64,000 bases of DNA from positions 372,001-436,000 of the forward strand of contig NZ_JAJKFK010000002.1 in the NCBI RefSeq assembly GCF_021653975.1, read 5' to 3'. Both the position numbers and the translations under genes were made by a program. Positions 25,972 to 51,028 of the stretch are shown piece after piece. Source of the stretch: Amycolatopsis sp. GM8 (GTDB taxonomy: Bacteria > Actinomycetota > Actinomycetes > Mycobacteriales > Pseudonocardiaceae). How positions within the stretch are numbered: position 1 is the first letter of the stretch; the number at the start of each line of letters is the position of its first letter. Below the pieces are notes generated by a model. The model did no database searches, was not told the origin of the DNA, and was given only the letters and a program-made list of their open reading frames with translations.

Positions 25972-26047
25972 GTATCGACTAGTAGTCAATACGCTTCTTC
26001 ATACGAAGGAGGCGAATTAAGCCGCTGGAGCAATTTTACAGGACTCC

Positions 26048-27160: not shown

Positions 27161-27286
27161 CGAGTACGCGAAATTAGGCTCCTAGCATCCGCAGACGCGT
27201 CATAAAACACTATCACCACCACATTCCGGCATGTACAGCGTCGTAAAAAGTAAAACACAACTTTCATTGCTGCGAGGTCCATCCCC
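27161..27286. promoter_or_regulatory. AT-rich divergent promoter region
   Basis: This gap between the leftward PLP enzyme and the rightward glycosyltransferase is much richer in A/T than the flanking DNA (for instance around 27200-27265). It is the likely divergent promoter of the island. No clear operator palindrome is seen. Confidence 0.4.
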
Positions 27287-28573
27287 TTGAACGTACTGAT
27301 TTTCACTCACGGAAGCCGTGGGGACGTCCAACCTTTTGCCGCGTTGGCCGCGGCCCTCGACGACGCAGGCCATCACGCCATACTGTGCGCTCCAAAATCT
27401 TCTGTTCTGCTGCCCACCCACAGCGGCGTCGAATTAATCCCTTTGACGGAAGATCTGGGCAAGTGGATGACCGAGCCCGAAGTCCTCGAGGCCGCAGAGA
27501 GCAACTATCGCGGACTGAGCGGGAAAAGAATCCTCCTCCAGGTTGTTCGCAAGGTTCGCGGCATGATGGCAACCGTACTCGATGAAATGGCGTACATCGC
27601 AATCGAATTGCACGATACTGGGACACGAATCGATGCCGTCGTGCACCATGTTGACCTACCAGCCCATGAGATCGCCGAAATGCTCAGGGTGCCAGCGATA
27701 CCGGTCTGCCTGCAGCCGTCCTGGGTGCCCACCTCAAGCTTCCCAAATCCTGAAGTTCCCTTCACTATTCCGAAAGTGCTTAACCGACTCTCGTACACTA
27801 CTACCAGATTGAGATTGCGCACCTTCACCGGAAACACCTCGTCGTGGCGCTCCAACTCGCTGAAACTTCCACGCAGACGTGGTCATCAGAACTTCCTCCG
27901 TACGCCTGGCGGAAAACAATCCACTATTATCCAAGCGTTCAGCCGGCATCTGCTACCAAGCCAGTTAAACTACCCGGCCCAGGTGCATACATCTGGTTTT
28001 TGGTTCACGCCTCGGGTTGAGACGCAGGTGCCAAGCAACGGCCTTCGTAGCTTTCTTCAGACGGGCCCAACACCCGTCTATATTGGTTTCGGCAGTATGG
28101 TCGGCACCAGCCCGGAGCGAACATCCAATTTGATAGTAGACGCAGTCGAGCGGACAGGGATACGCGCTGTTGTGGTGACAGGCTGGGGAGGGATAAAAGA
28201 GACCAAGAACGACAATATATTCTACCTGAAACAGGCGCCGTTCGACTGGCTGTTTCCGAAGGTTGCAGCCATTATACATCATGGCGGTAGCGGCACCACC
28301 GGAATTGCGCTCGTAGCAGGCCGACCACAAGTTGTCTGCCCGTTTCTTCCTGATCAACGGTACTTCGGCAACCGTATACACGCACGCGGGGTAGGTCCGG
28401 AACCCATACCCCAACGGGCTCTTGATGCTTCGCGCTTGTCGATGTCGATCCAGTCCGCACTCGGCGAGTCTCACTTCGCGGAAAATGCCGATGAGCTGGC
28501 AGCTCAAATCCGCTTGGAAGACGGTGTCCGTACAGCGGTAAAGATCATCGAGTCCGTTACTTCGCGCGATTAA
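27287..28573 (+). CDS. GT1-family (UGT/MGT-type) glycosyltransferase
   Basis: The protein has 428 residues from a TTG start (M-NVLIFTHGSRGDVQPFAALAAAL, the sterol/macrolide glycosyltransferase opening). The C-terminal donor-binding part has PVYIGFGSMVG and the PSPG-like block IIHHGGSGTTGIALVAGRPQ ... PFLPDQRYFGN. This GT-B enzyme transfers a nucleotide-activated sugar to a small hydrophobic acceptor such as a polyketide, sterol or peptide aglycone. That fits specialised metabolism better than capsule assembly. The donor may be made by the LegB/LegC-type enzymes just downstream, which is inference. Confidence 0.88.
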   Translation: MNVLIFTHGSRGDVQPFAALAAALDDAGHHAILCAPKSSVLLPTHSGVELIPLTEDLGKWMTEPEVLEAAESNYRGLSGKRILLQVVRKVRGMMATVLDEMAYIAIELHDTGTRIDAVVHHVDLPAHEIAEMLRVPAIPVCLQPSWVPTSSFPNPEVPFTIPKVLNRLSYTTTRLRLRTFTGNTSSWRSNSLKLPRRRGHQNFLRTPGGKQSTIIQAFSRHLLPSQLNYPAQVHTSGFWFTPRVETQVPSNGLRSFLQTGPTPVYIGFGSMVGTSPERTSNLIVDAVERTGIRAVVVTGWGGIKETKNDNIFYLKQAPFDWLFPKVAAIIHHGGSGTTGIALVAGRPQVVCPFLPDQRYFGNRIHARGVGPEPIPQRALDASRLSMSIQSALGESHFAENADELAAQIRLEDGVRTAVKIIESVTSRD

Positions 28574-28633
28574 TGCAGTTTCCCGCGCGGAAATCATTCC
28601 AACGATCCCCACCTTGGCGGAGGTTCTTTCGAA

Positions 28634-29641
28634 ATGAGCTCCGGACCTTATCAACTCAAAGGAAAAAAGGTGCTGGTTACTGGCGCTGACGGATTTATCG
28701 GGAGCCACTTGGTTGAGCGCTTGTTGCTTGAGGGTGCGGATGTGAGATGCCTCTGCATGTACAACTCGAACGGTTCGTACGGTTGGCTCGACGACCTGGA
28801 TCCACAACTTCGCGCCGACATCGACTTCAGGCTCGGCGACATTCGTGACGCCAGGTTCGTGCGCGAATGCATTGAAGACGTGCAGATAGTTTTTCATCTC
28901 GCCGCCTTGATCTCAATACCCTACAGCTACCTGGCGCCGCACTCCTTTGTCGAGACGAACATCATCGGCACCTTGAACATTCTGGAAGCCGCGCGGGTCC
29001 TCGACGGCGTGCGAGTCATCCATACGTCGACGAGCGAGGTTTACGGTACACCGAAGACAGTGCCGATTCGCGAAAGCCACGAACTCCATGCACAGTCCCC
29101 TTATGCTGCCAGTAAAGTGGCCGCAGATCAGTTGTGCGGGTCGTATGCATGCTCCTTCGGTGTCGATGTCCTGACCTTGCGGCCATTCAATACCTTCGGC
29201 CCACGGCAGTCGACGCGTGCGATAATCCCGACGATCTTGACACAACTTCTGGCCGGTCGGCGCAGTATCAATTTGGGTAGCCTTACCCCGAAACGGGACT
29301 TTACGTATGTGTCAGACACGGTCGACGGTTTCGTCAAGATGGGAACAGCGAAACTTGCTCCCGGTACCACGGTGCACCTCGGGACCGGGACGGCTGTCTC
29401 GATAGCAGAGCTGTTCGGCTTGTGCTGCGAGGTAACCGGCGTGGAGGCAAGTGCGGTCCCAGATGATATTCGATTCCGGCCGGAATCGAGCGAGGTCGAG
29501 ATCCTCCTCTCCGATCCGAGTAGCGCGGCCGAGAAACTGGGATGGAAAGCCGAGACAGCCTTTAGCGATGGATTGGTTAGTACTACGGAATGGTTACGCC
29601 TTCGGGTCGGCGGCGAGCAAGCCGTACGGTTTCATCGGTGA
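28634..29641 (+). CDS. legB: NAD-dependent nucleotide-sugar 4,6-dehydratase, LegB-like
   Basis: The protein has 335 residues; ATG 28634 follows GGCGGAGG by about 11 bases. It is an extended SDR: VTGADGFIGSHLVERL (NAD loop), THTSTSEVYGTP-like STSEVYG, and the catalytic SPYAASKVAAD (Tyr-X3-Lys). The pattern matches LegB, which converts GDP- or UDP-GlcNAc to the 4-keto-6-deoxy sugar. It is followed after 7 bases by the LegC-like aminotransferase, which would aminate C4. AT-rich codon use suggests acquisition with the island. Confidence 0.88.
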   Translation: MSSGPYQLKGKKVLVTGADGFIGSHLVERLLLEGADVRCLCMYNSNGSYGWLDDLDPQLRADIDFRLGDIRDARFVRECIEDVQIVFHLAALISIPYSYLAPHSFVETNIIGTLNILEAARVLDGVRVIHTSTSEVYGTPKTVPIRESHELHAQSPYAASKVAADQLCGSYACSFGVDVLTLRPFNTFGPRQSTRAIIPTILTQLLAGRRSINLGSLTPKRDFTYVSDTVDGFVKMGTAKLAPGTTVHLGTGTAVSIAELFGLCCEVTGVEASAVPDDIRFRPESSEVEILLSDPSSAAEKLGWKAETAFSDGLVSTTEWLRLRVGGEQAVRFHR

Positions 29642-29648
29642 GCCCGGT

Positions 29649-30824
29649 ATGAACATACCGCTCAACGCACCATATATCGGCCGCACGGAGTTCAAGTATG
29701 TTGAAGAATGCCTTTCCAGCACATACGTCTCGTCCGCGGGTCCCTTTGTAGGACGGTTTGAATCAGCTTTTGCCAAGTCCGTCGGCAGCTCCTTTGCGGT
29801 GGCCTGCAGCAGTGGGACAGCAGCCCTCCACGTAGCGCTCAGACTTGCTGGGGCACAGCCAGGGGCGACGATTGCCGTGTCCGATTTCACGTTTATCGCG
29901 TCGGCCAACGCGGCCGCCTACACCGGCGCTGATCTACTGCTTGTCGACAGCGAGCCCCAAACTTGGAATATGAACACCCAACTGCTCCTGGAAGAAGTGC
30001 ACCGGCGTGCCCGACTCGGTAAGAAAATTCCGCAGATCGTCGAGATCGTTCATGTTCTTGGCCATCCAGCGGACATGGCTCCCCTCCTCGAACTCCGCGA
30101 GAAGTACGGCGTACGGATAGTCGAAGATGCTGCCGAGGCGCTGGGTTCCCGGTGGATATCTGGACCGCTGGCCGGCCGACAAGTAGGCACAGTCGGTGAT
30201 TTCGGTTGCTACTCCTTCAACGGTAACAAGGTCATCACCTCGGGGGGCGGTGGCATGATCGTCACTGGCGATGAAGGCCTCGCCGATCACGCAAGACACC
30301 TCACAACACAGGCGAAAATTGATCAACGAGAGTACTTGCACGATGAGATTGGCTATAATTATCGACTGACGAACCTGGCCGCCGCACTGGGATTGGCGCA
30401 ACTGGAGCGGCTTCCCGTAATGTTGGAGGAGAAACGTCGCATCGCGGCGTCCTACTCCGAGCTTCTGCGGGGACTCGACATCAGTCTCGCCCCCGACGTC
30501 GCATGGGCTCAATCATCATACTGGCTTTACTCGGTCTTGTTGTCCGCTGGCGCAGCCTCGCCGGCGTCGGTTGTCGCAGACTTAGCAGCAGCTGGCATCG
30601 AGGCCCGACGAGTCTGGCCACCACTGCATCAACAGCGACCGTACGCATCCACCGAACGGGTCGGTGCCGACGTCGCTGATAGGCTCTATGGACTGGGTCT
30701 ATCCCTGCCCAGTTCAGTCGGCCGTGCGACTAGTGAACAGAGACACGTCGCACACGCGCTGTCCATGATCCTGCAAAATCCGGATAAAATTGCTATGGAG
30801 ACCGCGCGATCGATCCGTTCTTAA
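29649..30824 (+). CDS. legC: DegT/DnrJ/EryC1 sugar aminotransferase, LegC-like
   Basis: The protein has 391 residues from ATG 29649 (MNIPLNAPYIGRTEFKYVEECL). Motifs: CSSGTAALHVALRLAG, VSDFTFIASANAAAYTGA, VEDAAEALGS, and YSFNGNKVITSGGGGM with the PLP lysine. The opening IPLxxPYIGxxExxYVxECL is typical of the LegC branch, which installs the 4-amino group on the LegB product using glutamate. The 3' end overlaps the convergent amidohydrolase gene by 32 bases. Confidence 0.9.
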   Translation: MNIPLNAPYIGRTEFKYVEECLSSTYVSSAGPFVGRFESAFAKSVGSSFAVACSSGTAALHVALRLAGAQPGATIAVSDFTFIASANAAAYTGADLLLVDSEPQTWNMNTQLLLEEVHRRARLGKKIPQIVEIVHVLGHPADMAPLLELREKYGVRIVEDAAEALGSRWISGPLAGRQVGTVGDFGCYSFNGNKVITSGGGGMIVTGDEGLADHARHLTTQAKIDQREYLHDEIGYNYRLTNLAAALGLAQLERLPVMLEEKRRIAASYSELLRGLDISLAPDVAWAQSSYWLYSVLLSAGAASPASVVADLAAAGIEARRVWPPLHQQRPYASTERVGADVADRLYGLGLSLPSSVGRATSEQRHVAHALSMILQNPDKIAMETARSIRS

Positions 30825-31980
30825 TTACCAGGACGACATTTTGTAAAGATCCGATGTCAACGAGCGGGTTGCCTTTGACACCGACGAGGTCAGCTACTCT
30901 ACCAGCTTCTATGGTGCCAACCCGGTCAGCGACTCCCAGTGCCTGTGCCGCATTCGATGTCAATGCTTCGATTGCCTCGCGGTTGGTCAACCCACAGCCC
31001 ACCAGTTGGCGTGCTTCATTTGCCACCCGCCCGTGCGGCGTGGCCGTGCTTCCCGCATCTGTTCCAGCGGCCATGACCACACCCGCAGAAACAGCTCTAG
31101 CGATACTTTCACGATGTGCGGGCAGTACGATCTTCACCTTGTCCCGAATGTACCGGGGAATGTTCTCGTCCTCGAGAAAGCCGGACGGAAGATCTGTTGC
31201 GGTCAGGGTGGGAACCAGAATTGTGTTATTGGCTACGAGCTCGTCCAGCGCAGGTTCGTCGATCATCACCGCGTGCTCTACGGTGTCGACGCCTGCCGCG
31301 GCCGATATACGTACAGCGTTGGCGTTACTCGCGTGGGCCGCAACCCGAAGCCCCAGATCATGCGCGACATGGACCCCACGGCGCAGCTCGGGCTCGTTGA
31401 ACTGCACGGCGGTCAGATCCGATCCGGGAGTGCTTACGCCACCGCTTACCGCGAATTTGATGCAATCAACACCGGACGCGGACAGTTCCGAAATTGCATC
31501 AACGATGTCGGCTTCATCCTTGACCACTCTTCCAACAAAGTGACCGTGCCCATTGGGGATCGTAAGCAGAGGTCCTGCGGCAAGCAATCGTGGCAGAGTG
31601 CTACCAGAATTGCTCGCCCTTTCCTTCAGAAAGTAGATTTCAGGCGACGGTGCGCCTAGGTCGCGCACCGTAGTCACCCCTGCCTGAAGATGAGCGACGG
31701 CTCGTCTCGCAGCGCCCGCAACGTCACGGTCGATCCCGCTGATCATGTCACGGCCACCATTAAAAAAGAGGTGGACGTGGGCGTCGATGAATCCGGGCAG
31801 TATCGTTGCCTGGGCTGCGTCGAGAACCGCAACCTCGCCCGCCGCCACCAATCGAGCGTCTTGCAGTGAATCGTAGACGCCGTAAATATTTTCATCTTTG
31901 ATCAGCAGAGTTTGCCCGGGACGTTCTAAGTAACCGTAGGGGAGAAAAATATTCACGTTCGTCAAGGCAATGAATCCCAA
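30793..31980 (-). CDS. Metal-dependent amidohydrolase
   Basis: The protein has 395 residues. A TTG at 31980 is chosen because GGAGG lies 6 bases upstream; longer open frame to its left is not protein-like. It has a composite beta-sandwich plus TIM barrel: ILPGFIDAHVHLF (HxH metal ligands), VAAHASNANAV (His), TVEHAVM (His), AAGTDAGST (Asp) and a closing sandwich EAGRVADLVGVKGNPL. It belongs to the imidazolonepropionase/Xaa-Pro dipeptidase-like group. It may remove an acyl or amide group from a pathway intermediate or self-protective precursor; the substrate is unknown. Confidence 0.85.
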   Translation of the reverse strand: MGFIALTNVNIFLPYGYLERPGQTLLIKDENIYGVYDSLQDARLVAAGEVAVLDAAQATILPGFIDAHVHLFFNGGRDMISGIDRDVAGAARRAVAHLQAGVTTVRDLGAPSPEIYFLKERASNSGSTLPRLLAAGPLLTIPNGHGHFVGRVVKDEADIVDAISELSASGVDCIKFAVSGGVSTPGSDLTAVQFNEPELRRGVHVAHDLGLRVAAHASNANAVRISAAAGVDTVEHAVMIDEPALDELVANNTILVPTLTATDLPSGFLEDENIPRYIRDKVKIVLPAHRESIARAVSAGVVMAAGTDAGSTATPHGRVANEARQLVGCGLTNREAIEALTSNAAQALGVADRVGTIEAGRVADLVGVKGNPLVDIGSLQNVVLVIKNGSIARSP

Positions 31981-32080
31981 TGCCGGCCTCCGCGCGGTAT
32001 GCTCCTGCCGACTGCGACCCAAAATATATGGGAAGACGGAGGCCGGACAGGAATCTATGATCGCCTGCGATGACAATATT

Positions 32081-32103
32081 CGTATACTACCACGTAGTAT
32101 ACG
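32081..32103. promoter_or_regulatory. Perfect 10-base-pair inverted repeat, likely operator
   Basis: Arms CGTATACTAC and GTAGTATACG flank a 3-base centre (CAC), about 100 bases upstream of the amidohydrolase start and just downstream of the nucleotidyltransferase gene. The AT-rich arms and lack of a U-tract favour an operator over a terminator. The binding regulator is unknown. Confidence 0.6.
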
Positions 32104-32167
32104 ACATCATTGGAGGCGGCGCACCTGCGATATAGCAGGCGTGGTTGTCGCAGGCGTGGCCCGTCGA

Positions 32168-33229
32168 TCAGACTTGCCCTCTCGCTTGCGCAAGTTCCGC
32201 GGGTCGCCCTATGTCCTGCCAGTCATCTCCCAGCGCCCACAGGTTGACACGTTCCTGACGCGACAGACAGTCGGCGAACAAGCTGGTAATAGGAAAGAGG
32301 TCGCTACGGGGAATACGCGCCAGCAGGGTAGGCTCAAGCACATAAATTCCGGCGTTCACCCACCACGAAATAGTCGGTTTTTCGACTATTCTGTCGAGGC
32401 TACCATCAGTCGATTCCAGAACACCGAACGGCACTTCATGCCTATATTCACTCACGGCAATCGTCGCCGCCGCGAGCTCGCGCGCATGCGCCTTGAGCAG
32501 GTCGTCAACCTGAAAGTTCGTGATCAGATCGCCGTTCATCGCCAAAATCGGCGCGGACGGCTGGTAGCCCAGGTCTCCGAGCAGTCGCAGCGATCCTCCT
32601 GTCCCCAGGGGATGCTCCAGGTCTTCCCGCAGATATTCGATCGTGCAGCCGAATTTCGCCCCGTCCCCGAAATGCTTTTCAATAATATCAGCAAGATAAT
32701 TTACGGACAGGAAGATCGTAGACACCCCGGCGCCGACCAGGTGCAGCACCAACCGTTCAAGTATCGGCCGCCCAGCAACAGGTAGCATCGGTTTCGGGAC
32801 GTCCTTGGTCAGCCGGCCCAGCCTGGTGCCGCGACCGCCGGCCATGATCACGGCCCAATTTGGTAATTTCCGCATGCCGACGATCTGATTCTCGACATGG
32901 ATACTGGACAATCGCCCTGTCTCGTCAACAACGGGGACTTCGCGCACCTTTAATGCCTGCATCAGGTCCAGGACTTCAGCCCTTCCGTCCTCGGGCCCAG
33001 TCAGCATGGGCGGTTTCGAAACCAGAGGCGTCACCGGCTCGTCGAGTGACTGCCCGGTGAGCAAGGACCGCCGGATCGCACCTTCACGAACCACCCCTTG
33101 AAAGATGCCGTCATTGCCGACGACAAAGGCCGCAGAAATACGTTGATGGTCGATCAGTGAAAGTGCGTCGCGTATTGAAGCAGAGCTTCCGATGATGAAA
33201 TCCGAAAGGTTCGCATTATGGTGAGTCAC
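32168..33229 (-). CDS. CBS-pair sugar-1-phosphate nucleotidyltransferase (PtmE-like)
   Basis: The protein has 353 residues from GTG 33229 with GGGAG 6 bases upstream. Two N-terminal CBS motifs (~10-116, AAFVVGNDGIFQGVV and VPVVDETGRL) are fused to a nucleotidyltransferase (~124-350, IMAGGRGTRLGRLTKDVPKPML, LAMNGDLITNF). This fusion is characteristic of Campylobacter PtmE and relatives, which make GDP-glucosamine for legionaminic acid. It probably supplies the activated amino sugar for the LegB/LegC-like steps. The CBS pair suggests allosteric control by a nucleotide. Confidence 0.85.
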   Translation of the reverse strand: MTHHNANLSDFIIGSSASIRDALSLIDHQRISAAFVVGNDGIFQGVVREGAIRRSLLTGQSLDEPVTPLVSKPPMLTGPEDGRAEVLDLMQALKVREVPVVDETGRLSSIHVENQIVGMRKLPNWAVIMAGGRGTRLGRLTKDVPKPMLPVAGRPILERLVLHLVGAGVSTIFLSVNYLADIIEKHFGDGAKFGCTIEYLREDLEHPLGTGGSLRLLGDLGYQPSAPILAMNGDLITNFQVDDLLKAHARELAAATIAVSEYRHEVPFGVLESTDGSLDRIVEKPTISWWVNAGIYVLEPTLLARIPRSDLFPITSLFADCLSRQERVNLWALGDDWQDIGRPAELAQARGQV

Positions 33230-36108: not shown

Positions 36109-38448
36109 ATGCGTGGTTATCTCGATACCGCTACCCGGTTCGAGTTCGGCACGAAAGCCGAAACCCTCACCAGGTTAGCCGAACTCGTCCGGACGGCCGT
36201 GGTGCTTCCGCTCGAATATTTCACTGTCGCGGAATGGCGCGGCGAACCGGAACAGGTGCTGACGCGACTGTGCTCCCAGCAGTGGTCCGCGGCGCCGCTG
36301 ATCGTTCGTAGCAGCGGATACGACGAGGACAGGACGGGTTCTTCACTGGCCGGCCGCTACCTGTCCCAGGCGCACGTCAGCGGCAGGCGCGAACTCCGCC
36401 TCGCCATCGAGAAAGTCGTCGATTCGTTCGACAGCGACCATCCGGAAAACCAGGTCCTGGTCCAGCCACAATTCGAAGTGGCGACGGCGAGCGGTGTCGT
36501 CTCGTCGTACGAACCCAGCTGTGGCGCGCCTTATCGAGTGGTCAACTGGACCAGTGGATCCGATACAACAGAGGTGACTTCCGGCGGCTCGGTGGTGAAG
36601 ACGTGGTATTTCCTCGACGGAAACGCGGCAGTTCCTCCCGCCGCCGAACTCGAAGGAATACCGGAGCTCGTACTGGAACTGGAAGAACTGATCGGCGACG
36701 AACCGTTCGAGTTCGAATTCGCGGCCACCGAATCCGGCGCCCTGATCCTGTTCCAGGTACGGCCGCTGGCCGGGGTACGACCGATCCCGCGTGGGCAGCG
36801 GCACGCCGAGATCGTCGCCGAGTGCCAGGGACAGGTTCGGGCACTCAACCGCGAACAGTCCGTCGCGCTCGGCAAACGGACCGTACTGGGGATCATGCCG
36901 GACTGGAACCCGGCCGAGATGATCGGCGTGCGGCCGAGGCCGCTCGCGACCTCGCTTTACCGGACTCTCATCACCGACAGCGTGTGGGCGGAGTCGCGGG
37001 CCCGCTACGGCTACCGCGATCTGCGCGGTGTGCCGTTACTCGTCGATCTCGGTGGGCTGCCGTACATCGACGCGCGCGCCAGCTTCACGTCGATGGTCCC
37101 GGCGTCGCTCGACGATGTTCTCGCACGCCGACTGGTGGAGCACTACATCGAAACGCTGCGCGGCAACCCCCAGCTGCACGACAAAATCGAGTTCACGATC
37201 GCGCTCACGTGCTATCACTTCAACACCCCCGATCACGTGCGAGAACTGATCGAGTCCGGGATTCTTCCGGCGACCGACTCAGCGCTGCTGACGAAAGGCC
37301 TGCGCGAACTGACCATCGCGATCATGGCAGACCACGGGCCGTTCGCCGCCGATCTTCGTGCCTCGGAACACCTCGCCAGAACCCCCGTCACGAGGCCGGC
37401 CGAATTCTCGCTTTCGCATCTGGAATACCTTCTGACCACCTGTCGCCGCCGAGGGACTCTCCCATTTTCCGGCTTGGCCCGCGCGGCATTCGTCGCCACC
37501 AGCATGGTGCGCAGCCTTGTCGAACTGGGCGTTCTCACGGCCACCGAGGCAGACGCCCTCCTCGGCAGCGCGAACACGGTCAGCACCGTCTTGTTGCACG
37601 ACTTCGCGACGCTGACCAGAGACGAGTTCCTGGCACGATATGGGCATCTGCGACCGGGCAGCTACGACATCCTGTCACCACGCTACGACGAAGCACCCGA
37701 TCTTTATTTCGACTGGTCGCGGGAAGCTCCGCCGGCGTCGGCGAGCACGCAATTCGAGCCGAGTGCGGAACAACTGCGAGCGATCCGTGAGCTGCTTGTT
37801 TCCCATTCACTTCCGGGCAGTCCGGAACGCCTGCTCGAGTTCGTCGCCCAGGCCGTCGCCGCACGCGAATACAGCAAGCTGCACTTCACCCGTTTCCTGA
37901 GCGAGATCCTGGTCGAGGTCGCCCGCGCCGGTGCGCGGCTCGGATTCACTCCCGATGACATGTCGTATCTGACGATTTCAGCGCTTTGCGATTCGAGATC
38001 GGCAGACCGCCGGTATATCTCCGAGCTCGTCCGAGCAGGCAAAGAGCGGCACGAGATGACCGAAATCCTGTGTGCGCCAGCGGTTCTGACCGATCCGGCA
38101 GAACTCACGACGTTCGTGGCCGGCAACGGCGCGGCCAACTTCGTCACCCAGTCGCGAGTCATCGCCAGGGTCGCTGATGTGGCCGCCGGCGACGATCCGA
38201 CCGACGCGATCGCCGCGATCTCGGCGGCGGATCCGGGATATGACTGGATCTTCACCAAGCGCGTCAAGGGTCTGCTGACGGCGTTCGGCGGCGCGAACTC
38301 GCATATGGCGATCCGGGCTCTCGAACTGGGCATCCCGGCAGCGATCGGCGTCGGGAAGGAACAGTTCGAGCAGTGGCAGCGGGCCGGCGTGCTCGAGATC
38401 GATGCGGGCAACCGGATGGTGCGGGCGGTCGGGGCGGGCAGATCGTGA
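36109..38448 (+). CDS. L-glutamine kinase (Cj1418-like; ATP-grasp plus phosphohistidine domain)
   Basis: The protein has 779 residues, close to the C. jejuni enzyme. The N-terminal PPDK/PEP-synthase ATP-grasp has IVRSSGYDEDRTGSSLAGRY (~66-84) and FEFEFAATESGALILFQVRP (~200-219). The linker PDWNPAEMIGVRPRPLA (~264) is typical of this subfamily. The C-terminal swivelling domain has FGGANSHMAIRALELGIPAA with the phospho-acceptor His at about H732. No PEP/pyruvate-binding TIM barrel is present, which excludes PEP synthase and PPDK. The family enzyme phosphorylates the amide nitrogen of L-glutamine using ATP. It is first gene of a five-gene overlapping operon, and the following genes match the rest of that pathway. 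Confidence 0.85.
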   Translation: MRGYLDTATRFEFGTKAETLTRLAELVRTAVVLPLEYFTVAEWRGEPEQVLTRLCSQQWSAAPLIVRSSGYDEDRTGSSLAGRYLSQAHVSGRRELRLAIEKVVDSFDSDHPENQVLVQPQFEVATASGVVSSYEPSCGAPYRVVNWTSGSDTTEVTSGGSVVKTWYFLDGNAAVPPAAELEGIPELVLELEELIGDEPFEFEFAATESGALILFQVRPLAGVRPIPRGQRHAEIVAECQGQVRALNREQSVALGKRTVLGIMPDWNPAEMIGVRPRPLATSLYRTLITDSVWAESRARYGYRDLRGVPLLVDLGGLPYIDARASFTSMVPASLDDVLARRLVEHYIETLRGNPQLHDKIEFTIALTCYHFNTPDHVRELIESGILPATDSALLTKGLRELTIAIMADHGPFAADLRASEHLARTPVTRPAEFSLSHLEYLLTTCRRRGTLPFSGLARAAFVATSMVRSLVELGVLTATEADALLGSANTVSTVLLHDFATLTRDEFLARYGHLRPGSYDILSPRYDEAPDLYFDWSREAPPASASTQFEPSAEQLRAIRELLVSHSLPGSPERLLEFVAQAVAAREYSKLHFTRFLSEILVEVARAGARLGFTPDDMSYLTISALCDSRSADRRYISELVRAGKERHEMTEILCAPAVLTDPAELTTFVAGNGAANFVTQSRVIARVADVAAGDDPTDAIAAISAADPGYDWIFTKRVKGLLTAFGGANSHMAIRALELGIPAAIGVGKEQFEQWQRAGVLEIDAGNRMVRAVGAGRS

Positions 38449-38960
38449 CGAAGGGTGCGGTGATCTGGATAACCGGCCTGTCCGGCGCCGGAAAGTCGGC
38501 GGTCGCGAGCGCTCTGGTCGCACAGTTGCGGGAGGAAGGCAGGGCGCCGGTCTTCCTCGATGGCGACGAAATCCGGGCGGCGCTGGGGGCGGAACACGAT
38601 TTCGCGATGGAAAACCGGCGGCGGCTCGCCGGGACCTACGCGCGGCTGTGTCGGCTGTTGTCCGACCAAGGGCATGTTGTCGTGTGCGCGACGATCTCCT
38701 TGCAGCATCGGGTTCACGCCTGGAATCGGGAGAACATTCCGTCCTATGTGGAGGTTCTACTCGATGTGCCGCTGGGGGAACTGCACCGGCGCGACCCCAA
38801 ACGCATCTACCGGCAGGCCGACGGACACATCGTCGGCATCGACCTCGCCGCCGAGTTCCCGGTGACTCCCCATCTCCGAATCCCCAATCACGGACCCACC
38901 TCGCCCATGGTGGCGGCCGATCAGATCCGGAACTACTGCAGAACACAAGGAGTGTTATGA
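38445..38960 (+). CDS. Cytidine-diphosphoramidate kinase (APS-kinase fold, Cj1415-like)
   Basis: The protein has 171 residues from GTG 38445, overlapping the kinase stop (GTGA). It has an APS-kinase fold: Walker A ITGLSGAGKS (residues 9-18), FLDGDEIRAALG, and VVVCATISLQHRVHAWNRE. It would be annotated adenylylsulfate kinase, but there is no ATP sulfurylase (CysD/CysN/Sat) and it sits among phosphoramidate genes. In C. jejuni the equivalent protein phosphorylates the 3'-OH of cytidine diphosphoramidate. That function is inferred from context. True PAPS synthesis remains the alternative. Confidence 0.78.
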   Translation: MTKGAVIWITGLSGAGKSAVASALVAQLREEGRAPVFLDGDEIRAALGAEHDFAMENRRRLAGTYARLCRLLSDQGHVVVCATISLQHRVHAWNRENIPSYVEVLLDVPLGELHRRDPKRIYRQADGHIVGIDLAAEFPVTPHLRIPNHGPTSPMVAADQIRNYCRTQGVL

Positions 38961-39694
38961 CAACCTGGGACTACACCACGCTCGCCGCCACCTACTCGCT
39001 GCGGCCGCCATACGCGCCGCGGGCCATCGACCAGATCGTAGGGCTCAGCCTGACGCCGAACCCGCGGGTCGCGGACATCGGCGCAGGCACCGGTCATCTC
39101 ACGCTCGACCTGCTGGCGCGCCGCTGCGAGGTGGACGCGGTGGAACCGAACGCCGCGATGGCCGAGATCGGACGGGCCCGGACCGAGGGCCGGGCGTCGT
39201 GGTCGACCGGAACCGGCGAGGCGTCGGGACTCCGCTCGACGTCGTACGACCTCGTCACGTTCGGATCGTCGTTCAACACCACGGATCGGCAAGCGGCACT
39301 GCAGGAGTCGGCACGTCTGTTGGTGAACAGTGGCCACATCGCGTGCCTGTGGAATCACCGGCAGCTCGACGACCCGCTGCAGTTCGAGATCGAGTCGCTG
39401 ATCCGCTCCCGGGTCCCCGAATATTCGTATGGGCTGCGCCGGCAGGACCAGGCGCCCGTGATCGACGAAAGCGGGCTCTTCGGCGAGACGTCAGTGGTGG
39501 AGGAGCCGATCGTGCACCGCGTTCCGGCCGACGACTGGATCGCCGCTTGGCGTTCGCATGCGACACTCCAGCGGCAGGCGGGCGACCAGTTCGACGATCT
39601 CGTAAATGAGATCGCGAAGATCGCCGGCAGCGGCGAACTCGAGGTCCCGTATGTGACGGTCGGGTGGACCGCGCGGCTGAAGGACCGGCATTGA
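38957..39694 (+). CDS. Class I SAM-dependent methyltransferase
   Basis: The protein has 245 residues from ATG 38957 (ATGA overlap, AAGGAG at 38947). The Rossmann SAM motif is RVADIGAGTGHLTLDLLARR, followed by an acidic VDAVEPNAAM. It is a generic small-molecule methyltransferase (methyltransf_11/25 type). The C. jejuni MeOPN locus also carries methyltransferase genes (Cj1419/Cj1420) for the O-methyl group. Placed inside the operon, this one probably O-methylates the phosphoramidate or its carrier. Confidence 0.82.
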   Translation: MTTWDYTTLAATYSLRPPYAPRAIDQIVGLSLTPNPRVADIGAGTGHLTLDLLARRCEVDAVEPNAAMAEIGRARTEGRASWSTGTGEASGLRSTSYDLVTFGSSFNTTDRQAALQESARLLVNSGHIACLWNHRQLDDPLQFEIESLIRSRVPEYSYGLRRQDQAPVIDESGLFGETSVVEEPIVHRVPADDWIAAWRSHATLQRQAGDQFDDLVNEIAKIAGSGELEVPYVTVGWTARLKDRH

Positions 39695-40404
39695 AACCGA
39701 TCGGGGTCACACAGCGCGTCGTGTGCGAGCCGCGGGAGGTGCGGCTCGCGCTCGACGTGCGGTGGTCCGGGTTTCTGGCCGCGTGCGGATTGTTCGCGGT
39801 GCCGCTGCCGATCGAACCCGATATCGCCTGGTCGGTCGTGCGGCGGACCCGTTGCGTGGGGTTGCTGCTGTCGGGCGGGAACGATCTCGGCTCGGTGCCC
39901 GAACGCGATACCCTCGAATACGGGCTCGTGTCCAACGCGATGGCGGCCGAATTGCCGGTGATCGGGGTGTGCCGGGGGATGCAGGTGCTGCTGTCCGCGT
40001 TCGGTGGGGAGCTGCACCGGGTCGAGGGGCACGTGGCACAGACGCATCCGGTGAGTACCGGCCGGATGGTCAACAGCTACCACGAGTGGGCGGCATTCGA
40101 GGCCCCCGAGGAATTCCTCGTCACGGAACGCTGTGGCGCGGTCGTAGAAGCCATTCGGCACCGGACGGCGCCACTCACCGGGATCATGTGGCATCCGGAA
40201 CGGATGTCGCCCTTCGACGAGCAGGATCTCGCTTTTTTCATGGAGACATTCGGGAGCAGCCATGAGGGCCGTCATTCTCGCGGCAGGACGCGGATCCCGC
40301 ATGGGTCCGCTCACCGCCGATCGTCCGAAGTGCCTGCTCAAGATCGGCGGGCACACGCTACTGGAACGCCAGGCGGCGGCCCTGCGGATGGCCGGCGTCG
40401 ATGA
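39691..40404 (+). CDS. Class I glutamine-amidotransferase-fold hydrolase (gamma-glutamyl-CDP-amidate hydrolase, Cj1417-like)
   Basis: TTG 39691 is chosen because it restores the conserved opening (PIGVTQRV) and overlaps the methyltransferase stop (TTGA). The fold is GATase I / peptidase C26: LLSGGNDLG, nucleophile C94 in VIGVCRGMQVL, and H168/E170 in GIMWHPER. In the phosphoramidate pathway it hydrolyses CDP-L-glutamine to glutamate plus cytidine diphosphoramidate. The family core ends near residue 188 (FFMETFG), but no stop occurs until 40404. The frame therefore continues ~48 residues into the next gene, overlapping it by 143 bases. The total is 237 residues. Confidence 0.82.
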   Translation: MKPIGVTQRVVCEPREVRLALDVRWSGFLAACGLFAVPLPIEPDIAWSVVRRTRCVGLLLSGGNDLGSVPERDTLEYGLVSNAMAAELPVIGVCRGMQVLLSAFGGELHRVEGHVAQTHPVSTGRMVNSYHEWAAFEAPEEFLVTERCGAVVEAIRHRTAPLTGIMWHPERMSPFDEQDLAFFMETFGSSHEGRHSRGRTRIPHGSAHRRSSEVPAQDRRAHATGTPGGGPADGRRR

Positions 40405-41002
40405 GATCGGAATCGTGACCGGCTGGCAGGCGCAGCAGTTCGCGGGAATGCCTTTCCGGCTTTTCCACAATGCCGACTGGGCGACCACTTCCATGGTGGG
40501 TTCGTTGGCTTGTGCGGAAGAATGGCTGTTGACGGAGCCGCTTGTGGTTTCTTACGGGGATATCGTCTACGCCTCCTCGACCATCACCGGGCTGCTGGCC
40601 TCGGCTGCACCGATCACGATCGCCTATGACCCGGATTGGCGCGCGCAGTGGTCGTCCCGCTTCGAGGACCCGCTTTCAGACGCCGAGACGTTTCGGGTGG
40701 AGGCGAACGGACATCTGCTGGAAATCGGCGGCAGGCCGAGAACATTCGACGAGGTCGAAGGCCAATACATGGGACTGTTGAAGTTCACGCCCAGCGGCTG
40801 GGCAGCGTTGAAACGACTGCATGTCACCGAGACGGATCGCCAGGACATGACCGGACTGCTCCGGCGTCTGGTCCAGACTCAGCGGCCTGCGATCGCGACG
40901 ATCAAGAACACCGGACCATGGCACGAATTCGACCACAGCTCGGATCTTGCAACAGGACGGACGGCGATCAACCACCTGGACCGGATCCTGGGCAAGTCGT
41001 AG
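40262..41002 (+). CDS. Phosphoglutamine cytidylyltransferase (Cj1416-like nucleotidyltransferase)
   Basis: The protein has 246 residues from ATG 40262. It has a nucleotidyltransferase fold: AVILAAGRGSRMGPLTADRP with the nucleotide loop, K23 in PKCLLKIGG, and metal-binding D100 in VVSYGDIVY. ATTSMVGSLACAEEWL resembles the NM-type substrate segment of phosphocholine/phosphoglutamine cytidylyltransferases. The predicted reaction is CTP plus L-glutamine phosphate to CDP-L-glutamine. With the kinase, hydrolase and APS-kinase-like protein, the operon holds every known step to 3'-phospho-CDP-amidate. A sugar-1-phosphate substrate is the alternative if considered alone. Confidence 0.82.
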   Translation: MRAVILAAGRGSRMGPLTADRPKCLLKIGGHTLLERQAAALRMAGVDEIGIVTGWQAQQFAGMPFRLFHNADWATTSMVGSLACAEEWLLTEPLVVSYGDIVYASSTITGLLASAAPITIAYDPDWRAQWSSRFEDPLSDAETFRVEANGHLLEIGGRPRTFDEVEGQYMGLLKFTPSGWAALKRLHVTETDRQDMTGLLRRLVQTQRPAIATIKNTGPWHEFDHSSDLATGRTAINHLDRILGKS

Positions 41003-41102: not shown

Positions 41103-41924
41103 ATGAACGATCCACTGCTCTTGCGTGTGCTTACGGTTAACATTTGGAACGTCGAAGGCGACGACAAACGTCAACAACTCCTGCGCGACGCTATCACGGA
41201 TCTTCGGCCGGACCTCGTCGCATTGCAGGAGGTTACTCGCAACGCTGATTATGACCAGCTTGCCGCCGTTCTCGCCGACACAGAACTCCACGCTGTACAT
41301 CAGGTGGACGTGTTGCGCCCGACTGCGGCTGCTTCCCTGGCGGGAACCGCACTCGCGTCGCGCTGGGAACCGACGTCGGTAACCGGGATAGAGCTACCGC
41401 AAGGTATCGGCGCGGAGTGCGCGCTCGCCGCGACTGTGCCATTACCCAACGGCCTCGACCTGCTGTTCATGGCCGTTAAACCGACCTGGCGGCTCGACTC
41501 CGAGGTTGTTCGTACCACGCAGGCTCAAGCCATAGCCCAGTTCGACGCGAAGCTACGCCAGACCGTGCCGACCATCATCGCAGGCGATTTCGACGCGACA
41601 CCGGACGCCGATTGCATGCGTTACTTGACCGGGAAAACAGTGGTCGAAAACACGAGTGTACATTATCACGATGCTTGGACAATTGGCGGAGATGGCGGCC
41701 CCGGCTATACGTGGACGAGTGACAACACGCTGGCCGAACCATTGATCCGGAATACCCTCGGACAACTGCGACACGCGCGCAGAATCGACTACATCTTGGT
41801 CGGCTCCTTCCACAACCATCCGCTCGCCGCAGCACGAGTGCTGGACAGCCGAGTCGTCATGACGGATCCGCCCGCAAGCGACCACTACGGGGTCCTCGCC
41901 GACATCGAAATCGAGGCGCGCTGA
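41103..41924 (+). CDS. Endonuclease/exonuclease/phosphatase (EEP)-family phosphoesterase
   Basis: The protein has 273 residues from ATG 41103; ATG 41052 is an alternative with no better ribosome site. It shows EEP-fold motifs: VLTVNIWNVEG, LVALQEV (metal Glu), VPTIIAGDFDATPDA (GDFN-like), RIDYILVG and PASDHYGVLADI (SDH catalytic). There is no signal peptide, so it is cytoplasmic. It lies between the phosphoramidate core and the sulfotransferase-like gene. It could hydrolyse the 3',5'-bisphosphonucleotide left after group transfer, as PAP phosphatases do after sulfation, or it could trim the product. This is inference. Confidence 0.82.
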   Translation: MNDPLLLRVLTVNIWNVEGDDKRQQLLRDAITDLRPDLVALQEVTRNADYDQLAAVLADTELHAVHQVDVLRPTAAASLAGTALASRWEPTSVTGIELPQGIGAECALAATVPLPNGLDLLFMAVKPTWRLDSEVVRTTQAQAIAQFDAKLRQTVPTIIAGDFDATPDADCMRYLTGKTVVENTSVHYHDAWTIGGDGGPGYTWTSDNTLAEPLIRNTLGQLRHARRIDYILVGSFHNHPLAAARVLDSRVVMTDPPASDHYGVLADIEIEAR

Positions 41925-41964: not shown

Positions 41965-42879
41965 ATGCTCGACAGAATGATCACAGGATTCTTTGTCGAG
42001 GATCAAGAGGGGCACCGACGACTCAACGACGAGTTCCGTCGATTCCGCGAAGATGGCTACGGGTTGCCGCCGGACAATCTGCGCGCGATCGGCGACAAGG
42101 ATGTCATCGTCGCCAACTATGGTAGCGCTGGAACGGTGGCCATCAACAATATTCTGGCCGAGCTCGGTCTCAACTACGTAGCGAGCAATATCGCGACGCT
42201 CCATGCCGACGGAACCAGCAGCGCGACGGAATCCTATACGGAACGATGGCAGCAGCTCATCACGACCAGGCAAGCCGCCACCACCCTGTGGCCGCGCTTC
42301 ACGAAAACGCACCTCCCCCACGAATATTTCTCGTCAAAGAGACTGGGCGGTGTCTGGATCGTGGTACGGGACCCGCGGGACGCCCTTTACTCGCTGTACC
42401 GCATACTTCATCAACAAGATGATCCCGCAACCGACCCGTACGAGACGTGGAATCATTCATTCGACGACTGGATCAACGACAACAGCGTACTCAATCGCCG
42501 ACCGGTCGATATGTGGGTCGAATTCTACTCGAGCTGGCTCGAGCGCGCCGGCTACCAAGACGAGCTGACGATCACCAGATTCGAGGACTTCAAACGGAAT
42601 CCAGCGCAGACAATCGGCGCTGCCCTCGAACGTTTCGGTGTCAAAGTAACAAGACAACAGCTCGACGCGGCCGCTTCAGCCAGTTCTTTCGCCGCCATGC
42701 AGACACACGAGAGTGCTGTGAGTACTGGGGCGCAGGTCATACGCCGTGGCATGATCAACGAATGGCGTGAGTGGATGGATGACGAGAAATGGCGCGCTTT
42801 TTCGGGAGACGACCTCAGGGAGCTTGCGGGTAAGTTGGGCTACGACCTCACGTTCACGTCCGACCTGAGCCACAGCTGA
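41965..42879 (+). CDS. Sulfotransferase-fold protein, candidate phosphoramidate transferase
   Basis: The protein has 304 residues from ATG 41965; ATG 41977 is possible. It shows the cytosolic-sulfotransferase pattern: RFTKTHLPHEYF (KTHLP, 112-122), the 3'-phosphate site WIVVRDPRDALYSLYR (131-146), LTITRFEDFKRNP, and the C-terminal RRGMINEWREWM (260-271). The 5'-phosphosulfate-binding loop, normally YPKSGTTW, is NYGSAGT (51-57): the lysine that contacts the transferred sulfuryl group is missing. The donor in this cluster is predicted to be 3'-phospho-CDP-amidate, a PAPS analogue, so it is a candidate phosphoramidate transferase. Classical sulfation is the alternative. Confidence 0.78.
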   Translation: MLDRMITGFFVEDQEGHRRLNDEFRRFREDGYGLPPDNLRAIGDKDVIVANYGSAGTVAINNILAELGLNYVASNIATLHADGTSSATESYTERWQQLITTRQAATTLWPRFTKTHLPHEYFSSKRLGGVWIVVRDPRDALYSLYRILHQQDDPATDPYETWNHSFDDWINDNSVLNRRPVDMWVEFYSSWLERAGYQDELTITRFEDFKRNPAQTIGAALERFGVKVTRQQLDAAASASSFAAMQTHESAVSTGAQVIRRGMINEWREWMDDEKWRAFSGDDLRELAGKLGYDLTFTSDLSHS

Positions 42880-48406: not shown

Positions 48407-49306
48407 TCAGAGTTGGTGTTGAGCGGCCACTTGGTGGTGTTGCTCGAGAGCGAGCAATCCGCGTTGCTCACTTCGGAAGGCGACGTCGACGTAGAGCGCG
48501 TCGATCACTGCCAGATGCGCCATCCGGCTGGCCATGGCCTCGACGCGATAGCTGATCCCCCGGCCTCCGGCAATGATCGGGTGGTCGACCACGCGGGTCA
48601 GCGGGCTCTTGCTGAAACTGGTGATCGCGATGGTGGTCGCGCCGCCGTCGCGGGCTGCCGTGGTGGCCGCCAACGTTTCCTTCGTCGCGCCCGTGTGGCT
48701 GACGGTCACGCACACGCCACGAGCGCCGAGGGTACGTGCGGCAAGGTGCTGGGTGAGTGCGTCGACCGGCGCATCGACCGGCAGGCCGAGCATCCGGAAA
48801 CGGTACGCCGCATCCTGCGCGATCGGGCTGCTCGGCCCTAGCCCGACCAGCACCAACCGCCCCGCTCCGGCGATAGCGCGCGCCGCTGCCGCGAACGCGG
48901 CGTGGTCGACAGTCGCCAGGCAATCGGACAGCACAGCCGCGCTCGACGAGACGACCTTCTCCAGGACTGCCGAGCTGTCGTCAGCAGCGGAGATTTCCTC
49001 GTACACCAGCTTGCCCCCCGGACTCGCGCTGCGCACCACGAGGCGCTTGACGTCCTGGAACCCGCCGAACCCCATCCGCTGACATGCGCGCACCACCGTC
49101 GATTCCGCAACACCCGCCGCGGCCGCCACCTCGGTAATCGACAAGTACCCCAGGCCCTGAGCACGATCCAGCAACACCTGTGCGACTCGGCGATCCGCCG
49201 GGCGGAGGGAAGGCATCAGAGCACGGACTCGACCGAGCACGTCGTGACCTACCCGTGGTGCCGGGTTGGCATCCGCCTTTTCGAGACCGCGAGCGCTTGG
49301 CGACAC
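48407..49306 (-). CDS. RpiR-family regulator (HTH_6 plus SIS domain)
   Basis: The protein has 299 residues. GTG 49306 is chosen, with AAGGAT 7 bases upstream; open frame further left is not protein-like. The N-terminal HTH is LSITEVAAAAGVAESTVVRACQRMGF. The C-terminal SIS domain (~130-260) has LVLVGLGPSSPIAQDAAYRF and VCVTVSHTGATKETL, which binds phosphosugars. It lies upstream of and in the same direction as the ABC importer, so it probably senses a phosphorylated sugar derived from the imported compound. Confidence 0.9.
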   Translation of the reverse strand: MSPSARGLEKADANPAPRVGHDVLGRVRALMPSLRPADRRVAQVLLDRAQGLGYLSITEVAAAAGVAESTVVRACQRMGFGGFQDVKRLVVRSASPGGKLVYEEISAADDSSAVLEKVVSSSAAVLSDCLATVDHAAFAAAARAIAGAGRLVLVGLGPSSPIAQDAAYRFRMLGLPVDAPVDALTQHLAARTLGARGVCVTVSHTGATKETLAATTAARDGGATTIAITSFSKSPLTRVVDHPIIAGGRGISYRVEAMASRMAHLAVIDALYVDVAFRSEQRGLLALEQHHQVAAQHQL

Positions 49307-49489
49307 GGCAACTATCCTTGCCCAGATATACGGCAGAAGGCAAATGACAGTTTGATCTACCGAGCAGGAGGCGGTGACGGGGGTGGCCACGACGGCGCGA
49401 CGGTCCTCGTGGCCGGCTGTCGAACGCATCACAGGTGGCCTGCCGACGGACTGCGACGTGCTCCCAGGTCGGGTCGTCAACTGTCCCGT

Positions 49490-51028
49490 TCAGTCCTGAA
49501 CCGCTTTGTGCTCATCGGACAGTCGCCGGGTTCGTATCGTCACGGCGGCAACCACAGCAGCAGCACAGGCAATGGCCGCGATGAGCAGCATCGTATGCTG
49601 AAAAGCTGATTGATACGCTGCTGCCGCCACCTCAGCAATACCTCGATTCGAGGACGCCATCGAATCCGCTGGCCGAACAATACGACCGATGACAACCTGC
49701 GCGGCGAGCTCATGCAGGGCAGTCCCCGGCGGAAGTCGTTCTCGCATATCGAATAACACGCTCGATACCCGTGCTTGAAAGAACATGCCTGTCAGACTGA
49801 TCCCTAGCACGACACCAAGGTATTCGATTGATTGATTGTAGCCCGACGACATACCGGCACGACCGGGCTGAGCCCTGTCGATGACGACCATGAGCCTGAT
49901 CGGATTCCACAGCCCCAAACCAAAACCGGAGATGACCATCATGAGCACGAGTGTTGTCCAGAGCTCGAAAGGTCCGCTCGTCGCGCCCAGCGCGGCACCC
50001 ACAGCGACGAGCGAAGTGGACAGCACGAGTAATGCACGAATGGAAACTCGCTTCGCCAGGCTCGCCGACGAGATGTTGCCCACCCACACCAGGAGGGTCA
50101 ACGGCAGCATCGCCACCCCGGTCAATCCCGGTGAAAGGCCGATCTTGTTCTGCAGGTAGACAGTCGAGAAGAATATTATCGAGATAGAGGTGGTGCCCGT
50201 CACGAGCGCAAGGATCAGCATGCCGTTGGTCGTGAGATCGCGAAATTCAGCTACGTCGAAAAGGGCGTGTCGGCCACGTCTCCGCTCTATGAACACGAAG
50301 GCAACCGCTGCCGTGGCAGTGGTCCCGACCAGGAGCCACGTCGTCCCACCGGCGCCGGCCGGGTTCCCGACCTGCATCGCCAAGCCGACGAACGAACTCA
50401 TTCCCACGATTATGAGCGCCCCACCGCCCCAGTCGATGGGCGCTGACGGCCGGGTGGCCGGTGAACCGGCAAACCTCCTGAGCAGCCAGGCTATGGCAAC
50501 GCAGGCCGGCACGTTGACCAGAAATATCGAGCGCCATCCGAAGGAACTGATCAAGGCGCCGCCAAACATCGGCCCGAAAGCCATGGCGAAACCCGCCACC
50601 GAGCCGTAGATCCCTAGCGCGAAACTCCGTTGCCTGCCCTCGAAGACTTCACTCAGCAGGGCCGGGCCCACCGCGAGCAGCGCGGCTCCGCCAATGCCCT
50701 GCACCGAGCGCGCCGCGATCAGCAACGTGGCATTAGCCGAGATTCCACAGAGCAGGGACATGACACAGAAGACCGCAAGTCCTGCGGTGTACGTCCTCTT
50801 CCTGCCCCAACGGTCTGATATCGACCCGACCAACAAGAGAAATGTGGCAAGACCAGTCGAGTAGGAGTTGATCACCCACTGTAGATCGTCGAAGTCGGCG
50901 TGGAGCGAGACACCGAGCGCCGGTACCGCGAGTTGAGCGCCTATCACGTCGAGTTGCACGATTCCGGCGGACGCCGCAACCGCGGCAAGGATTCGGCGTT
51001 GACCTGTTCTCTGTGTCGTGATCTGCAC
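49490..51028 (-). CDS. MFS exporter, DHA2 (EmrB/QacA) family, 14 TM
   Basis: The protein has 512 residues from GTG 51028. Motif A is GSISDRWGRKRTYTAGL, motif C lies in GPMFGGALISSFGWRSIF, and an early Asp in GIVQLDVIGAQLAVPAL is typical of DHA2 proteins. About 14 membrane helices are expected. It is a proton-driven drug or natural-product exporter. Its closeness to the phosphoramidate/amino-sugar genes makes it a candidate export or self-resistance pump, but the RpiR/ABC genes lie between. Confidence 0.9.
   Translation of the reverse strand: MQITTQRTGQRRILAAVAASAGIVQLDVIGAQLAVPALGVSLHADFDDLQWVINSYSTGLATFLLLVGSISDRWGRKRTYTAGLAVFCVMSLLCGISANATLLIAARSVQGIGGAALLAVGPALLSEVFEGRQRSFALGIYGSVAGFAMAFGPMFGGALISSFGWRSIFLVNVPACVAIAWLLRRFAGSPATRPSAPIDWGGGALIIVGMSSFVGLAMQVGNPAGAGGTTWLLVGTTATAAVAFVFIERRRGRHALFDVAEFRDLTTNGMLILALVTGTTSISIIFFSTVYLQNKIGLSPGLTGVAMLPLTLLVWVGNISSASLAKRVSIRALLVLSTSLVAVGAALGATSGPFELWTTLVLMMVISGFGLGLWNPIRLMVVIDRAQPGRAGMSSGYNQSIEYLGVVLGISLTGMFFQARVSSVLFDMRERLPPGTALHELAAQVVIGRIVRPADSMASSNRGIAEVAAAAYQSAFQHTMLLIAAIACAAAVVAAVTIRTRRLSDEHKAVQD

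Follow-up and report, generated by a model that had tools for sequence, protein, structure and literature searches.

The closest described counterpart of the genes considered here is the O-methyl phosphoramidate (MeOPN) pathway of Campylobacter jejuni, whose genes Cj1415–Cj1418 are mpnD, mpnC, mpnB and mpnA, respectively. Within a 64,000-nucleotide stretch of the genome of Amycolatopsis sp. GM8 (hereafter the window), a cassette of five overlapping genes encodes members of the same four enzyme families together with a methyltransferase, which is likewise common to both systems. We put at roughly two-thirds the probability that this operon produces a phosphoramidate donor in activated form and that a sulfotransferase-fold protein encoded just downstream attaches it to a glycan or a small molecule, a reading drawn from sequence comparison and structure prediction.

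The proteins of the two systems can be compared in length, using the published values for C. jejuni HS1 (PMC7901785): 779 residues in the window and 779 in C. jejuni for the large kinase, 171 and 170 for MpnD and its counterpart, 192 (counted to the end of homology) and 200 for the hydrolase, 246 and 253 for the cytidylyltransferase, and 245 as against 253 and 257 for the methyltransferase. There are also differences. The Amycolatopsis cassette belongs to an actinobacterium, has another gene order and lies outside a Kps capsule locus. C. jejuni has two methyltransferases, in addition to its MeOPN transferases.

Phosphoramidon and talopeptin are likewise actinobacterial natural products with a phosphorus–nitrogen (P–N) bond, which we take to join a deoxysugar phosphate to the amine of a dipeptide. 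Both are Streptomyces compounds (PMC6429109). MeOPN has been likened to some synthetic pesticides, and the same source reports no insecticidal activity for it (PMC3907429). A 2022 review terms the glutamine kinase “C. jejuni-specific” (PMC9561416), and a search of the open literature, with subscription papers and preprints outside its scope, showed no report of the cassette outside Campylobacter among the titles and abstract openings listed.

Composition of the cassette

The five genes run in one direction over positions 36109–41002 (Table 1), and their first three junctions are 4-base overlaps. At the fourth, the hydrolase frame overlaps the cytidylyltransferase gene by 143 bases, adding about 46 residues in another frame; homology of the hydrolase stops near 40263 (192 residues) and the frame stays open to 40404. 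A similarly long overlap occurs at this junction in G005, G007, G015 and G017 (G and L numbers are our labels for genomes and loci), the other compared loci having short overlaps or small gaps. An earlier reading of the DNA letters without database searches (the sequence-only reading) had proposed five overlapping genes of these domain types in this order, including a 779-residue ATP-grasp/phosphohistidine protein that lacks a phosphoenolpyruvate (PEP)/pyruvate barrel; gene calls and Pfam scans agree. The G+C content of 24001–52000 is 0.575–0.652, compared with 0.658–0.709 in the flanks, which is consistent with acquired DNA.

The large kinase scores 779.8 bits against NCBIfam PRK05849 (cut-off 501), with other families at 36 bits or less among the matches listed. 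The Pfam scan identifies PPDK_N (ATP-grasp) and the PEP-utilizers mobile (phosphohistidine) domain, together with a sub-threshold match to dsRBD2; it finds no PEP/pyruvate barrel, and the C-terminus lies 25 residues past the mobile domain. Across 86 aligned large kinases, the swivel histidine of GGANSHMAIR is kept in 85, the remaining one being gapped there, and six of the seven positions of DWNPAEM are invariant. No solved structure matches the protein by sequence at an E-value of 0.001. By its family score, the large kinase is a member of PRK05849 and not a PEP synthase, with the membership of Cj1418 in that family taken as given.

The small kinase has in common with adenylyl-sulfate (APS) kinase (CysC) the fold, the Walker A motif and, as proposed, 3′-hydroxyl kinase chemistry, and is set apart from it by score and by branch. 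It is a Pfam APS_kinase protein that reaches 94.2 bits on TIGR00455, under the curated APS-kinase cut-off of 138.7, and the same genome holds a second APS kinase at 228.9 bits. All ten cassette genomes searched show this pattern, with another APS kinase above the cut-off and the cassette kinase below it. In a phylogenetic tree, a single branch with a Shimodaira–Hasegawa-like approximate likelihood ratio test (SH-aLRT) support of 99 parts 64 cassette kinases, the window's included, from 12 housekeeping APS kinases. The tree took cassette kinases of at least 100 bits on their own profile, which dropped L062 (94 bits), and was made without G017, L117, L118, L119 and duplicate loci, and this choice of rows may favour the separation. 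On score and tree, the small kinase is CDP-amidate-kinase-like and distinct from APS kinase. The sequence-only reading had held that it would fall if phylogeny placed its proteins firmly with PEP-dependent enzymes, true APS kinases and sugar nucleotidyltransferases; for the two kinases, the family score of the large one and the tree of the small one answer this.

For the hydrolase, the top NCBIfam match is NF045546, the gamma-glutamyl-CDP-amidate hydrolase model, at 92.5 bits, followed by one at 43.8 among the matches listed. This model is again the best match of ten out of ten hydrolases from further loci (82–129 bits) and the sole match at E ≤ 1e-14 in nine of them, and the Cys, His and Glu columns are invariant in all 81 aligned sequences. 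Residues 2–87 of the cytidylyltransferase match the CTP:phosphocholine cytidylyltransferase 1jyk (E=3e-8; LicC-like), and the NCBIfam matches listed (25 of 34) include no model for CTP:phosphoglutamine cytidylyltransferase. The methyltransferase is proposed to O-methylate the phosphoramidate, its specificity being read from its setting. Given the PRK05849 score, the kinase tree and the best match of the hydrolase, the earlier proposal that C. jejuni chemistry runs here holds up as an argument from homology.

Distribution of the five families

A scan with the kinase alignment of the genus yielded 298 relatives in named genomes, and the counts for kinase loci refer to the best 80 of these, a match being at least 100 bits against profiles from eight Amycolatopsis congeners. 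Three of the 80 loci (L025–L027) are congeners used in building the profiles, and distant loci may be undercounted because the profiles come from the genus. Near the kinase lie the hydrolase (76/80), the cytidylyltransferase (74/80), the methyltransferase (63/80) and the APS-kinase-fold protein (60/80). The complete set of five is found at 51 of the loci, actinobacterial ones included, and, where each flank is no shorter than 6 kb, at 34 of 42. The clustering of the five families exceeds chance.

Gene order varies among groups of loci, six actinobacterial loci having in common the order sulfotransferase-fold gene, methyltransferase, kinase, hydrolase, cytidylyltransferase and 3′-kinase. Among the hosts are Lachnospiraceae, Oscillospiraceae, Azospirillum, Rheinheimera, Verrucomicrobia and actinobacteria, and no Campylobacter locus is among the best 80 kinase relatives or 21 plasmid records. 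In sampled genomes, the kinase was found in 8 of 19 of the genus, in 2 of 394 at the level of the class (the window's own genome and G159) and in 1 of 396 at that of the phylum (the window's own). Two plasmids can be mentioned here: AZO_p6 of Azospirillum lipoferum (L138) carries the cassette, close to which two proteins are annotated as having a sulfotransferase domain, and a conjugative plasmid of Pseudohalocynthiibacter (L139) carries the kinase, hydrolase and cytidylyltransferase with neuC about 8 kb upstream.

A sulfotransferase-fold protein as candidate transferase

The sulfotransferase-fold gene starts 962 bases past the last cassette stop, with one gene of the endonuclease/exonuclease/phosphatase (EEP) family in between. 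It had no place in the sequence-only reading, whose five-gene cassette is real and whose extent is probably too short: the module probably comprises the cassette and this gene, reaching position 42879. Its inclusion in the module, and its proposal as the transferase, are new here.

The association is seen at several levels. When the neighbours in 13 actinobacterial loci were clustered, the PF00685 family was present in 12, the sole extra sense-strand family in nearly all of them, and overall 13 of the 15 actinobacterial loci have the gene close to the cassette (G017 with it, L086 and A. acidicola without). In A. acidicola, the sole PF00685 gene is on another contig among seemingly unrelated genes, judged by eye; its product is of the cassette type, with 241 bits on the cassette profile, on which each of the six non-cassette PF00685 proteins tried either stays at or below 20 bits or goes unlisted. 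Within the genus, exactly one PF00685 gene (E ≤ 1e-8) is found in all eight cassette genomes, near the cassette in seven, versus any such gene in 2 of 11 cassette-less genomes (Fisher p 0.0007, relatedness ignored). Likewise, eight of nine cassette genomes searched (four of the nine from the genus) have no PF00685 gene besides that of the cassette.

The protein scores 71.4 bits on PF00685 (cut-off 22). Its predicted structure, with a mean predicted local distance difference test (pLDDT) of 79.6, matches sulfotransferases bound to 3′-phosphoadenosine 5′-phosphate (PAP) (Foldseek E=1e-8; Z up to 17.6 over 231 residues at 3.1 Å), and the nearest solved folds are enzymes that use 3′-phosphoadenosine 5′-phosphosulfate (PAPS), including the glycopeptide sulfotransferases Teg12 and StaL. 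It differs from these in the sulfate loop and in its genomic partner, a CDP-amidate-type pathway. The loop position, presumably a Lys or Arg facing the sulfate of PAPS in sulfotransferases, is Gly, Ser or Ala in 14 of 14 cassette-type copies, whereas all four non-cassette PF00685 proteins of Actinomadura carry Lys or Arg there (by eye). The VRDPRD...S motif, which we take to bind the 3′-phosphate in sulfotransferases, is kept in all 14. Because the pathway would end in a 3′-phosphonucleotide, a kept reading of the 3′-phosphate together with a lost sulfate contact is what would be expected of a phosphoramidate transferase. On balance, these features favour the sulfotransferase-fold protein being the (methyl)phosphoramidate transferase in actinobacteria.

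It is worth considering that the cassette may make its donor as proposed while the sulfotransferase-fold protein, as a conventional PAPS-dependent enzyme, sulfates the same scaffold and another protein transfers the phosphoramidate. Membership in PF00685 and the PAPS enzymes among the nearest folds are in keeping with this, as are the housekeeping APS kinase in all ten cassette genomes searched and the lack of a strong counterpart outside actinobacteria or of any in L086. Nonetheless, we regard it as unlikely: the loop residue is missing from every cassette copy and present in all four controls, which come from one genome; the gene follows the cassette through terpene, non-ribosomal peptide synthetase (NRPS) and type III polyketide synthase (PKS) neighbourhoods; and no other sense-strand family beyond the five occurs in at least 12 of the 13 clustered loci.

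With regard to other transferases, a search for PF11186 (DUF2972), presumably the family of Cj1421 and Cj1422, gave no match in 11 genomes, with no positive control responding. A family whose example (L044 15957–18335) has 793 residues is found in 22 of the 80 loci, those shown being Bacillota, and is a candidate transferase there.

Proposed pathway and alternatives

In the proposed pathway, the 779-residue kinase would use ATP and its phosphohistidine to phosphorylate the amide nitrogen of glutamine, the cytidylyltransferase would couple phosphoglutamine with CTP to give gamma-glutamyl-CDP-amidate, and the GATase-fold hydrolase would split this into glutamate and CDP-amidate. The APS-kinase-fold protein would then phosphorylate the 3′-hydroxyl, yielding 3′-phospho-CDP-amidate, a look-alike of PAPS. 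By homology to the characterised C. jejuni enzymes, these four steps are likely to occur here. The later steps we infer from how the genes are linked, from the lost motif and from the fold: the methyltransferase would O-methylate the phosphoramidate, at whichever stage; the sulfotransferase-fold protein would move the (methyl)phosphoramidate to an acceptor hydroxyl and leave 3′-phospho-CMP; and a phosphatase may remove this by-product.

The readings weighed here overlap in part, and the confidences given to them need not total one. Less probable than an ordinary sulfotransferase beside the pathway is a different activated P–N donor, in which the amide is not that of glutamine or the amidate is moved with its amine rather than released as NH2. 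Such a donor would suit a hydrolase that falls under its equivalog cut-off, and the large kinase is 36–46% identical to 77 of the 80 kept relatives, so that its substrate could have drifted. We think this improbable, as the near-invariant DWNPAEM motif in 86 kinases and the invariant Cys, His and Glu of 81 hydrolases fit a single common substrate. That no phosphoramidate is made at all, and that the locus instead serves a sulfated glycan, its PEP-synthase-like kinase standing alongside genes for sulfate activation and sugar nucleotides, is what the database names of homologous genes would suggest (“PEP-utilizing enzyme”, “adenylyl-sulfate kinase”, “phosphocholine cytidylyltransferase family protein” and “gamma-glutamyl-gamma-aminobutyrate hydrolase family protein”), but this is very unlikely given the missing PEP barrel, the split of the small kinase from APS kinases, a Pfam scan of neighbours in the window that showed no ATP sulfurylase, and a hydrolase whose best match is gamma-glutamyl-CDP-amidate hydrolase.

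Several observations count against a phosphoramidate pathway with a sulfotransferase-fold transferase. PRK05849 itself bears the label “hypothetical protein”, and the likeness to Campylobacter rests on family models and published lengths. All 11 hydrolases tested, the window's included, are under the 250-bit equivalog cut-off of NF045546; the assignment of the cytidylyltransferase, made from NTP_transf_3, the LicC resemblance and linkage, is tentative; and the family of the methyltransferase is a broad one. The kinase of G159 exceeds the PRK05849 cut-off and yet has no cassette neighbours, and the actinobacterial locus L086, from a metagenome-assembled genome of Acidimicrobiaceae, has the kinase, hydrolase and cytidylyltransferase only, with no match to the 3′-kinase, methyltransferase or sulfotransferase profiles within 10 kb on each side. 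The analysis covered the best 80 of the 298 kinase relatives. As for the candidate transferase, 9 of 13 cassette copies carry the catalytic-type His of sulfotransferases, which speaks against a uniform mechanism; two copies (G005 and A. acidicola) have a Lys one residue after the loop glycine; and there are near-identical pairs among the 14 copies. Its link to the cassette is confined to actinobacteria: in the profile search of the 80 kinase loci, it reaches at least 100 bits in eight, all actinobacterial, the remaining 72 giving five weak sulfotransferase matches (37–66 bits) and 67 none, so that no strong counterpart was found outside that group. Finally, the protein has 304 residues and the Campylobacter transferases have about 610–640 (PMC7901785), and the two could not be related to each other.

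Neighbouring genes and possible acceptors

Table 1. Coordinates of the cassette genes and other features of the window
Feature	Position	Strand	Remarks
Glutamine-kinase-like gene	36109..38448	+	ATG start, 779 aa; MpnA/Cj1418-like L-glutamine kinase homologue
APS-kinase-fold gene	38445..38960	+	GTG start, 171 aa; MpnD/Cj1415-like, cytidine-diphosphoramidate-kinase-like protein
Class I S-adenosylmethionine (SAM) methyltransferase gene	38957..39694	+	ATG start, 245 aa; Pfam Methyltransf_25/11
Class I GATase-fold gene	39691..40404	+	TTG start; MpnB/Cj1417-like, gamma-glutamyl-CDP-amidate-hydrolase-like; Peptidase_C26/GATase
Cytidylyltransferase gene	40262..41002	+	ATG start, 246 aa; MpnC/Cj1416-like, CTP:phosphoglutamine-cytidylyltransferase-like; NTP_transf_3
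EEP-family gene	41103..41924	+	Pfam Exo_endo_phos E=8e-19
Sulfotransferase-fold gene	41965..42879	+	304 aa; candidate (methyl)phosphoramidate transferase
RpiR-family regulator	48407..49480	-	Pfam HTH_6 + SIS; possible regulator
Major facilitator superfamily (MFS) transporter	49490..51028	-	Pfam MFS_1 E=1e-49; possible exporter
NeuC gene	24763-25989
LegB gene	28634-29638
LegC-type gene	29649-30821

The by-product 3′-phospho-CMP invites a look at hydrolases near the cassette. A polymerase and histidinol phosphatase (PHP)-domain protein is encoded in 10 of the 80 loci (A. pretoriensis, Amycolatopsis A133 and Bacillota, mostly Oscillospiraceae); of nine scanned, the nearest family is 3′,5′-nucleoside bisphosphate phosphatase for seven and RNase RNM for the other two, with every score below the cut-off. 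In place of it, the window has the EEP-family protein and some congeners have a haloacid dehalogenase (HAD) protein. Removal of 3′-phospho-CMP by these PHP, EEP and HAD neighbours fits, as a post hoc reading, and the EEP protein is possibly, on slender grounds, a phosphatase for the nucleotide by-product. Counting the window's own genome, homologues near the cassette occur in three of the eight cassette genomes of the genus for the EEP protein and in six for the RpiR-family regulator; an MFS protein is also near it in six, with similarity at the superfamily level.

Upstream of the cassette, 24760–33229 looks by its gene content like a locus for a sugar of legionaminic or bacillosamine type. 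Besides the NeuC, LegB and LegC-type genes, this stretch encodes a threonine-synthase-like enzyme dependent on pyridoxal phosphate (PLP), a GT1-like glycosyltransferase, an amidohydrolase and a CBS-domain nucleotidyltransferase; a NeuB-like gene, below its cut-off, lies about 92 kb outside the window. Of the eight cassette genomes of the genus, the window's own and that of A. bartoniae are the only ones with LegC next to the cassette. The other six have it at a distance of 2.0 Mb (G015) or 3.6 Mb (G003), or on another contig, near a homologue of a helix-turn-helix (HTH) gene of the window. Of 19 genomes of the genus, 11 have a LegC homologue (58–63% identical), the window's own among them: all eight cassette genomes versus 3 of the 11 others (Fisher p 0.003, relatedness ignored). 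The corresponding figures for the HTH gene homologue are 8/8 and 7/11 (p 0.10). Given this co-occurrence, LegC may be linked to the cassette in trans, and a LegC-type sugar is one candidate acceptor.

The sequence-only reading had placed the cassette next to natural-product-type genes. This is plainly so in several other actinobacteria, and less so here, given that the LegC-type gene stands beside the cassette only in the window and A. bartoniae. In A. pretoriensis, the cassette neighbours include a polyprenyl synthetase, a terpene-cyclase-type protein and a cytochrome P450; in S. cellostaticus, a ketosynthase and an O-methyltransferase; in Actinomadura, a type III PKS; and in Umezawaea, an aromatic amino acid lyase, an adenylation-thiolation-thioesterase (A-T-TE) NRPS and a halogenase. 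No scaffold gene common to all cassette loci was seen in Amycolatopsis. An arylmalonate-decarboxylase-family protein (PF17645; L012 12375–13055) is linked to the cassette in G003, G007, G015 and G017. A protein that by eye is flagellin-like (L049 4745–6532) is encoded near the cassette, its family occurring in 6 of the 80 loci, apparently Bacillota, which suggests phosphoramidate-bearing flagellar glycans.

Implications

Few known metabolites have P–N bonds, and the route to a phosphoramidate group that has been worked out begins with the glutamine kinase. Homologues of all five cassette proteins are now seen across several phyla, in gut Lachnospiraceae and in actinobacterial natural-product clusters among others. 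We see about an even chance that phosphoramidation is a general bacterial group transfer parallel to sulfation, carried by a mobile cassette and, in actinobacteria, by a re-purposed sulfotransferase fold, with P–N products (terpenes, peptides, polyketides and glycans) hidden behind generic gene names. If the sulfotransferase-fold protein is the transferase, a new group-transfer reaction would become definable. In that case, searching genomes for the kinase together with a PF00685 protein of altered loop would lead to new phosphorus natural products.

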